The notes under the pieces: generated by a model
The model's input: only the letters and a program-made list of their open reading frames with translations
Database searches by the model: none
Told to the model about the DNA's origin: nothing
In this document: piece by piece, positions 47,340-49,403 of the stretch
How positions within the stretch are numbered: the first letter of the stretch is position 1
Layout of the letters: each line of letters starts with the position of its first letter
DNA from: Leptonema illini DSM 21528
GTDB lineage: Bacteria; Spirochaetota; Leptospiria; Leptospirales; Leptonemataceae
Length of the DNA: 64,000 bases
Assembly: GCF_000243335.1 (NCBI RefSeq)
Contig: NZ_JH597773.1
Span: forward strand, 1,199,989 to 1,263,988
Direction of reading: 5' to 3'
Program-made: the position numbers and the translations under genes

Positions 47340-49403
47340 CTATAAGGCAAACTGGCGATGTCCTTCGATGAGCTGCGCGAAGTGCGATCGTTCGCCCTCG
47401 TCGACGTCGTCGGGAAAGCGTGCGTCGCTGCGAGTCCAGCGCTCCAGCCAGCGCCCGTCAAGCAGAGCGGACGTGCCGCGGCGCTGCACCGCCTGTTCGG
47501 TTAAAGCCATCGTCGTGTCGGACTTCAATCCCGTGCCCGTTCCGGCCGCCACAAAGAAGCCTGCGGCAAGCAGCGTCGCACGCACGCGAGTCGCCGCCGA
47601 ATAGGTGAAAAGCTCCGCATCGTGCTCGCCGCAGATGCGATACATCGACCGGAAGGCAGCAAGCGACCAGAGCGGACCGTTCGTTTTGTAAGAGTAGGGA
47701 TCGTAGAAGATCAGATCGGGCCGATCGGCCTCGCTCATCGTTTCAAGGAAATCGCCCTGCACAAGCTGCCAGGAGATCGGGCTGTGTTTCGATTGCCAGA
47801 AGCCGTCTCGTAGAAGCACGTGTGGTCCGGCATGTTTCAGATGTGGAAAGCGATCGACGTGTGTCAGCGCAAGACGCAGGGCGTCGAGATCGTTCTCGAA
47901 GCTGATGATACGCAGCTCGGGCAACGTTGCGGCGTCGATAGCCGAAGCGGATTCCGATCGGGCATTGTTGTGAGTCTTTGAATGGCTCAGGGCGTGAATC
48001 CCCGCTTCGTATGCGCGTATCGTCGCCATCGCATTGTAGGCCGCTCCGAGCCCCACATCCCATACGGTTAACGGCGAAGAGCCGAGCCGTCGTATCAGCT
48101 CGGATTGCTCGACATAAAGGCGTCGTGCCTCGACGTCCGGCTCGGAGCCCGGATGCATCACCTCGCCCGACGGCGCATGCTGAATGCGCACAAAGCCGTC
48201 ACGCGATTCGTGCAGACAGAAGGCGCCGATAGACTCGATGAACTCGCGCTTGTTTCGCGTTCGCACCGGAGGCGGTCCGGGCGGACGATCGGTGTCGGGA
48301 TTGGCAAGAATCTCGCGCTGCTCTTTATAGAGCGATTCGAAACTGCCGGCGAGTATATGACGGCGCATCGAGGCCATGAGTCGATGATAGAAGCGCAGGT
48401 TGTGAATCGAGAGAAGCTGCCATCCGAGAATCTCATCGGCCTTATGCAGATGGTGAATATAGGCCTTGCCGTAATGAGCGCATGTATAACAATCGCAGTC
48501 CGGATCGACGGGCTCGTCGGCGAATTTATAGACCGATCGCTCAAGACGCATGCGTCCTCGGCTGGTGTAGGCGACGCTCTGCTGTGCAAGGGCGCTTGGA
48601 ATGATACAGTCGAACATATCGACGCCGGCATTCACCGCTTCAAGCAGATCGATGGGCGTGCCCACGCCCATCAGATAACGCGGACGGTTCTCGGGCATGA
48701 GATCGGTCGTGAAGCTGGTGAACTCTTCGCGCTCATCTTTCGTTTCGCCGACGGCCAATCCGCCGATGGCGAATCCGTCGAACTCAAGGGCCGACAGAGT
48801 CTCGGCGCTCTGACGGCGCAGATCACGAAAAAGAGCGCCCTGTATAATACCGAAAAGGGCCTGCTCGCTATCGCCTCTGGCTTCAAGAGAGCGCTTCGCC
48901 CAGCGATGCGTCAGATGCATCGCCTCTTCGGCCGTTTTATAGTCGGCCGTCGACGGAATACACTGGTCGAGCGCCATCATAATGTCAGATCCTATCGCCT
49001 TCTGCATGCCGATGCTCATCTCGGGCGTGAGCAGAATCGTCGCCCCGTCGACGTAGCTGCGAAAGAGAGCGCCTTCTTCGGTCATGTTGCGCGAATGGGG
49101 CAGGGAGAAGATCTGAAATCCGCCCGAGTCGGTTAACACCGATCCCGACCAGTTCATCATGCGATGGATGCCGCCCATTCGCTCGAAAACCTCGGCGCCG
49201 GGACGCAGAAGAAGATGATACGTGTTGGCGAGAAGGATCTGTGATCCGACCGTTTTCAGATCTTCGACGCGCAATCCCTTCACCGTGGCATTGGTACCGA
49301 CGGGCATAAAGAGGGGCGTTTCGATAACGCCGTGCAACGTGCGAAAGGTGGCGGCACGGGCCCGGCCCGCCTTCGCCTGGATCTGGAAATCAAGCCGACT
49401 CAC
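47340..49403 (-). CDS. tgt: Fusion of tRNA-guanine transglycosylase and MnmD-like methyltransferase
   Basis: 687 aa, against about 375 for Tgt. Residues 1-375 are a TIM-barrel Tgt: Asp92 in [12 protein letters not shown], nucleophile Asp265 in MFDCIIPS, zinc ligands C303, C305, C308 and H334. It exchanges G34 of GUN tRNAs for a queuosine precursor. After a Pro-rich linker (RPPGPPPV) a methyltransferase domain follows, with [13 protein letters not shown] as SAM motif I and [17 protein letters not shown] like the active-site segment of MnmD/MnmC1, which modifies wobble uridine. The loop after Asp265 ([19 protein letters not shown]) lacks the TRNAR consensus of ordinary Tgt. A chimera by misassembly is unlikely because the frame is continuous. 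Confidence 0.85.

Follow-up and report, generated by a model that had tools for sequence, protein, structure and literature searches.

The window analysed here, a stretch of 64,000 nucleotides from Leptonema illini DSM 21528, contains a gene that joins a base-exchanging Tgt domain to a methyltransferase domain related to MnmC2, and the fused protein probably makes a wobble base so far undescribed in tRNA. In the reading that we prefer, to which we assign a probability of roughly 0.5 on the basis of conserved and altered residues, the fusion would insert preQ1 into RNA with a target differing from the set of tRNAs with GUN anticodons, and would then N-methylate the amine of preQ1. The fuller version of this reading is more tentative: a second Tgt with altered anticodon recognition would place preQ1 in RNAs outside queuosine synthesis, where the fused methyltransferase would convert it to 7-(methylaminomethyl)-7-deazaguanosine, and this would constitute a widespread, undescribed pathway.

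The gene is read as a single uninterrupted frame (Table 1), and the N-terminus of its product, MSRLDF, aligns with the ATG starts of relatives. The initial annotation, made from the sequence alone, had proposed that Tgt and an MnmD-like methyltransferase lie in one chain; this was borne out, as one frame carries both domains and each is matched by Pfam and by fold. It had also proposed a survey of relatives. A profile of the methyltransferase half was compared with one genome per GTDB species, which gave 289 encoding loci, and the best 80 of these 289 were kept and examined together with 15 loci from Spirochaetota. Both domains are in one frame in 92 of the 95 loci, and the remaining three loci end at contig edges. 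Because the same two-domain frame recurs in 92/95 loci, it is due neither to chance nor to a sequencing error, and a frame or assembly artefact is ruled out. The linker had been described as Pro-rich, which holds for the Leptonema member but not for the relatives, where it is short and basic and not regularly Pro-rich. AlphaFold2 modelled the whole chain from an alignment of 79 fusions with a pLDDT of 92.7 and a pTM of 0.66; in this model, the linker is disordered near residues 375-390, and the mutual placement of the Tgt and methyltransferase domains is uncertain.

Table 1. Positions in the window of the fusion gene, its domains and its diagnostic motifs
Feature	Position	Strand	Residues and remarks	Evidence
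Tgt-MnmC2-like fusion gene	47340..49403	-	687 aa, GTG start, stop 47340-47342	Open reading frame; homologous fused frames in 92/95 loci
Tgt (base-exchange) domain	48294..49403	-	1-370	PF01702 on 15-363; structural match to 1q2r
Predicted preQ1-pocket motif GGLAVGE	48744..48764	-	214-220 (Z. mobilis G230-E235 region)	Invariant in 81/81 fusions
PSALAQQS in place of canonical PTRNARNG	48576..48599	-	269-276	Z. mobilis R286 and R289 replaced
Flexible linker	48231..48293	-	371-391, Pro-rich in the Leptonema member	pLDDT drops to 56-74
MnmC2-like methyltransferase domain	47343..48230	-	392-687	PF05430; Z 24.5 to A. aeolicus MnmC2
YDPYS	47691..47705	-	567-571, holds D568 (E. coli MnmC Asp-178)	D568 in 81/81 fusions

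The N-terminal half is matched by the Pfam TGT family (PF01702) over residues 15-363 with an E-value of 5e-146 (486.7 bits), and the fusion scores 465.9 bits with the NCBIfam Tgt equivalog TIGR00430, well above the cut-off of 306.75. The best structural match of this half is the TGT of Z. mobilis (1q2r; Z 54.6 over 371 residues), to which it is 44% identical. Tgt residues were numbered by alignment to this enzyme, and conservation was counted over 81 non-identical fusions. In Z. mobilis numbering, the nucleophile D280, D102, D156, C158, Q203, G230-V233, E235, M260 and the zinc ligands are unchanged in the 81 fusions; in known Tgt structures, these residues make up the active site and the pocket for preQ1. 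In the numbering of the fusion, the catalytic Asp pair D265 (nucleophile) and D92 (general acid/base), the zinc ligands C303, C305, C308 and H334, and the preQ1-type pocket (D146, C148, Q188, GLAV 215-218, E220 and M245) are likewise invariant. The fusion shares its fold, both catalytic Asp residues, the zinc ligands and the preQ1 pocket with bacterial Tgt (TIGR00430, PF01702), but differs from it in that the arginines of the PTRNxRNG segment are replaced, a methyltransferase is added at the C-terminus, and the protein is an additional paralogue that stands beside a canonical Tgt in the genomes tested. Ala232, present in Z. mobilis and in all fusions, is Ser in 18 of 20 canonical Tgts (L002 among them).

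These 20 canonical Tgts, which come mainly from the same genomes as the fusions, served as the comparison set for the segment beside the nucleophile, which reads PTRNARNG or similar in the canonical enzymes and mostly P-T/S-Q-L-A-Q-R-G in the fusions. Arg occupies the R286 position (Z. mobilis numbering) in 0/81 fusions versus 20/20 canonical Tgts, and the R289 position in 5/81 fusions, being replaced in the other 76, versus 20/20 canonical Tgts. In the Z. mobilis TGT-RNA structures (1q2r/1q2s), R286 and R289 reportedly contact the base after G34 (U35). Arg286 of the Z. mobilis enzyme also lines a cavity that links the ribose-34 and phosphate-35 pockets of the twisted dimer (PMC5395182). Since the arginines beside the nucleophile are replaced, the fused Tgt is probably not reading the usual U33-G34-U35 context, and anticodon reading has likely changed. 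The initial annotation had identified the Tgt half correctly, but it had missed the lost anticodon-side arginines, the status of the protein as a second Tgt, and the widespread family of single origin to which it belongs.

The same residues bear on two other possible targets. We regard it as unlikely that the fusion performs the proposed chemistry on the ordinary GUN tRNAs, placing preQ1 at G34 of the Tyr, His, Asn and Asp tRNAs and methylating it there as a switch against the canonical Tgt-QueA-QueG route; the unchanged preQ1 pocket and catalytic residues and the coexistence of both routes in the genomes would agree with this, but the loss of R286 in all fusions and of R289 in 76/81, both arginines being kept in every canonical Tgt, suggests that anticodon recognition has changed. 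It is less likely still that the RNA on which the Tgt half acts is no longer a tRNA but rRNA or a small RNA, in which preQ1 would be inserted and then methylated. Such retargeting would account for the replaced anticodon-side motif, and bacterial Tgts are able to act on short non-tRNA hairpins (PMC13416341), but the methyltransferase half is related to an enzyme of the wobble position, and the evidence points to no particular RNA.

Regarding the C-terminal half, Pfam Methyltransf_30 (PF05430) matches residues 542-634 of the fusion with an E-value of 5e-12 (46.3 bits, cut-off 22), and the family was matched in all 45 relatives tested. The NCBIfam MnmC2 model NF033855 gives 64.1 bits, which is below its cut-off of 136, and judged by the NCBIfam cut-off rule this half is a relative of MnmC2 and not an MnmC2 ortholog. 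When the C-terminal part was modelled alone with AlphaFold2 (pLDDT 93.6, pTM 0.91), its best PDB match was A. aeolicus MnmC2 (3vyw; Z 24.5, 242 residues), followed by E. coli and Y. pestis MnmC and then by spermidine synthases (Z 17.4 and lower); the closest folds beyond MnmC include, besides the spermidine synthases, an m4(2)C synthase, and these are likewise amine-alkylating enzymes. The match of the predicted fold to 3vyw rules out that this part is not a methyltransferase, and as far as the models go both halves are, at the level of fold, what the initial annotation took them for.

In addition to the fold, the fusion shares with MnmC2/MnmD (A. aeolicus 3vyw and the N-terminal domain of E. 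coli MnmC) the SAM loop (G451/G453/N457), the residues E503, D568 and W579, and K627; the alignment of this half to the canonical enzymes is at about 20% identity, a level at which single residues outside the strong motifs could be misplaced. D568 and W579 are each invariant across the 81 fusions and 44 canonical MnmC/MnmD sequences, and E503, the equivalent of Glu-101 of E. coli MnmC, is present in 80/81 fusions. Both SAM binding and methyl transfer by E. coli MnmC appear to depend critically on Glu-101 and Asp-178 (PMC3648344). Where the fusion differs, other than in its low identity, its score below the NCBIfam cut-off and its being joined to Tgt instead of the MnmC1 oxidase, is in the SPxxNP motif after the catalytic DxF: the Pro and Asn of this motif (Pro572 and Asn575) are present in 44/44 canonical MnmC/MnmD, but are replaced in most fusions, where the segment is mostly S-x-K-T-D. 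Because D568 and W579 are kept while SPxxNP is lost, the chemistry of the methyltransferase half looks to be kept and its substrate side changed, and since this half also scores below the MnmC2 cut-off it could act on something other than a simple aminomethyl group. Such substrate-side changes, as well as the base promiscuity of which Tgt enzymes are capable (PMC8136771), would fit an inserted base that is another 7-deazaguanine or another amine-bearing base, or a methyl group placed on another atom of the base. We consider this improbable in view of the GLAVGE and C158-type pocket, which is invariant as in preQ1-using Tgts, and of QueF, which is encoded in all genomes tested.

The fusion is not the only wobble-modifying enzyme of its hosts. 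Separately from it, the Leptonema genome encodes a canonical Tgt, QueF (C1:2459464), QueA (C3:65159), QueG (C1:1450847), MnmE (C1:3584278) and a full MnmC2-MnmC1 protein (C1:3441600), so that the check for separate mnmC and mnmE genes recommended by the initial annotation found both. Canonical Tgt is also present beside the fusion in the fusion genomes tested (fragmentary in G192 and G393), fusion-free relatives have one Tgt each, and in several fusion genomes MnmD occurs as a protein of its own. QueF was found in 33/33 genomes searched, in one of them (G401) below the cut-off only, and QueA in 31/33. Of the 24 fusion genomes that were searched for QueG and QueH, 23 have at least one of the two. 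In G189 and G195, two fusion carriers of the same genus, QueF, canonical Tgt and QueH were found and QueA gave no match; as these bins are 90% and 83% complete, the absence of QueA is uncertain. Given the canonical Tgt, QueF, QueA, QueG, MnmE and MnmC, the fusion is an additional enzyme, and the synthesis of queuosine and that of mnm5U are both served by other genes; that it substitutes for a missing Tgt or MnmC is ruled out, both being present. Least probable of all is that the halves act on separate substrates, Tgt on G34 and the methyltransferase making mnm5U34 in other tRNAs, and were joined for coordinated expression: both families do act at position 34 and the active-site Asp of the methyltransferase is conserved, but beside the fusion Leptonema has both MnmC and a canonical Tgt, several fusion genomes have their own MnmD, and the SPxxNP invariant in canonical MnmC/MnmD is lost.

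PreQ1 is 7-aminomethyl-7-deazaguanine, whose side chain is CH2-NH2, and in tRNA it is known as a step to queuosine. The CH2-NH2 group on nm5U34 is the one that MnmC2 methylates (PMC3648344). Because the two groups are the same, insertion of preQ1 followed by its N-methylation is the best reading of the fusion, and because QueF is present in 33/33 genomes preQ1 is expected to be available. The Tgt half, with D265 and D92, would first replace a guanine of an RNA, most likely that at position 34 of a tRNA, with QueF-derived preQ1, as its conserved residues suggest; the target RNA would probably lie outside the GUN set or form a subset of it. The MnmC2-like half, using SAM and D568, would then add a methyl group to the primary amine of the preQ1 side chain, as suggested by homology and chemistry. 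The predicted product, 7-(methylaminomethyl)-7-deazaguanosine, would be the preQ1 counterpart of mnm5U, and its methylated amine may be expected to be a poorer substrate for QueA, which would keep the base apart from queuosine. The initial annotation had offered two meanings for the fusion. The first, coordination of wobble modification, is disfavoured, since a separate canonical Tgt, QueF/QueA/QueG, MnmE and full-length MnmC already serve both pathways. The second, methylation of the inserted base, emerges as the better one from the invariant preQ1 pocket and the aminomethyl group that preQ1 shares with the MnmC2 substrate, the product itself being a prediction.

The arrangement recalls that of bifunctional MnmC (MnmC2-MnmC1), in which an MnmC2-type domain is likewise fused to the maker of its wobble substrate; there, however, the partner is an FAD oxidase and not a base exchanger, and Leptonema encodes MnmC in addition to the fusion. 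N-methylated deoxy-preQ1 reportedly occurs in phage DNA, where it would correspond to the base proposed here for RNA, although other enzymes are involved. Within the open-access literature, to which the search was confined, we found no description of a Tgt-MnmC2 fusion or of N-methyl-preQ1 in tRNA, which does not imply absence. If the preferred reading is correct, the known wobble modifications would gain a member and preQ1 a second role, the specificity of Tgt for GUN anticodons could be reset by a small motif, and 7-deazaguanine wobble chemistry would extend past the GUN tRNAs. Many organisms in at least eight labelled phyla may then hold an RNA base that is missing from current nucleoside catalogues, for which the proposed methylated base gives a clear prediction by mass.

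Among the best 80 of the 289 loci, 38 are from Verrucomicrobiota, 11 each from Bdellovibrionota and Myxococcota, six from Pseudomonadota and four from Spirochaetota, with one or two records each from Binatota, Acidobacteriota, Thermodesulfobacteriota, Bacteroidota and Riflebacteria. The fusion spans at least eight phyla, although the phylum labels are those of metagenome bins, and individual assignments may be mistaken. Its prevalence is low: counting strong matches, it was found in 15/393 Spirochaetota genomes, and in Verrucomicrobiota it was found in 10 of 195. Tgt domains from 46 fusions and 20 canonical enzymes were placed in a tree built by a quick method with no bootstrap, in which the fused domains form one clade (SH-aLRT 100); this is consistent with a single fusion event and subsequent spread and loss. 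Matches in viral contigs were to the Tgt part only, reaching at most query residues 1-380, and thus no phage-borne fusion was found among them; no plasmid record in PLSDB covered 80% of the fusion query. One candidate, G025, was rejected: it is a membrane protein, part of which resembles spermidine synthase.

No conserved neighbour or operon names a substrate or target: the commonest neighbour cluster, a general ABC-ATPase family, occurs in only 9/84 loci. As no gene neighbour is recurrent, the neighbourhood gives no support for a functional assignment. Upstream of the fusion and on the same strand (window positions 49451-53215, minus strand) lie a small lipoprotein-like reading frame with no Pfam match (49451-49909) and a gene for an HsdR-like protein of type I restriction (49937-53215), neither of which recurs beside the fusion in other loci. 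A DDE transposase-like reading frame (PF13737; 45441-46295, plus strand) lies near a LysR regulator gene (46300-47226). Finally, a third and very divergent Tgt, with the pocket GGWPLSEG in place of GGLAVGE, is encoded in one examined locus (L169, G163:C16:163000-175000, at 5490-7414), and no further close copies of it were found among 198 genomes of the phylum. Its gene overlaps by 4 bases that of an FmrO-type rRNA methyltransferase (PF07091, E 2e-32), which makes this another, unrelated pairing of a Tgt with a methyltransferase.
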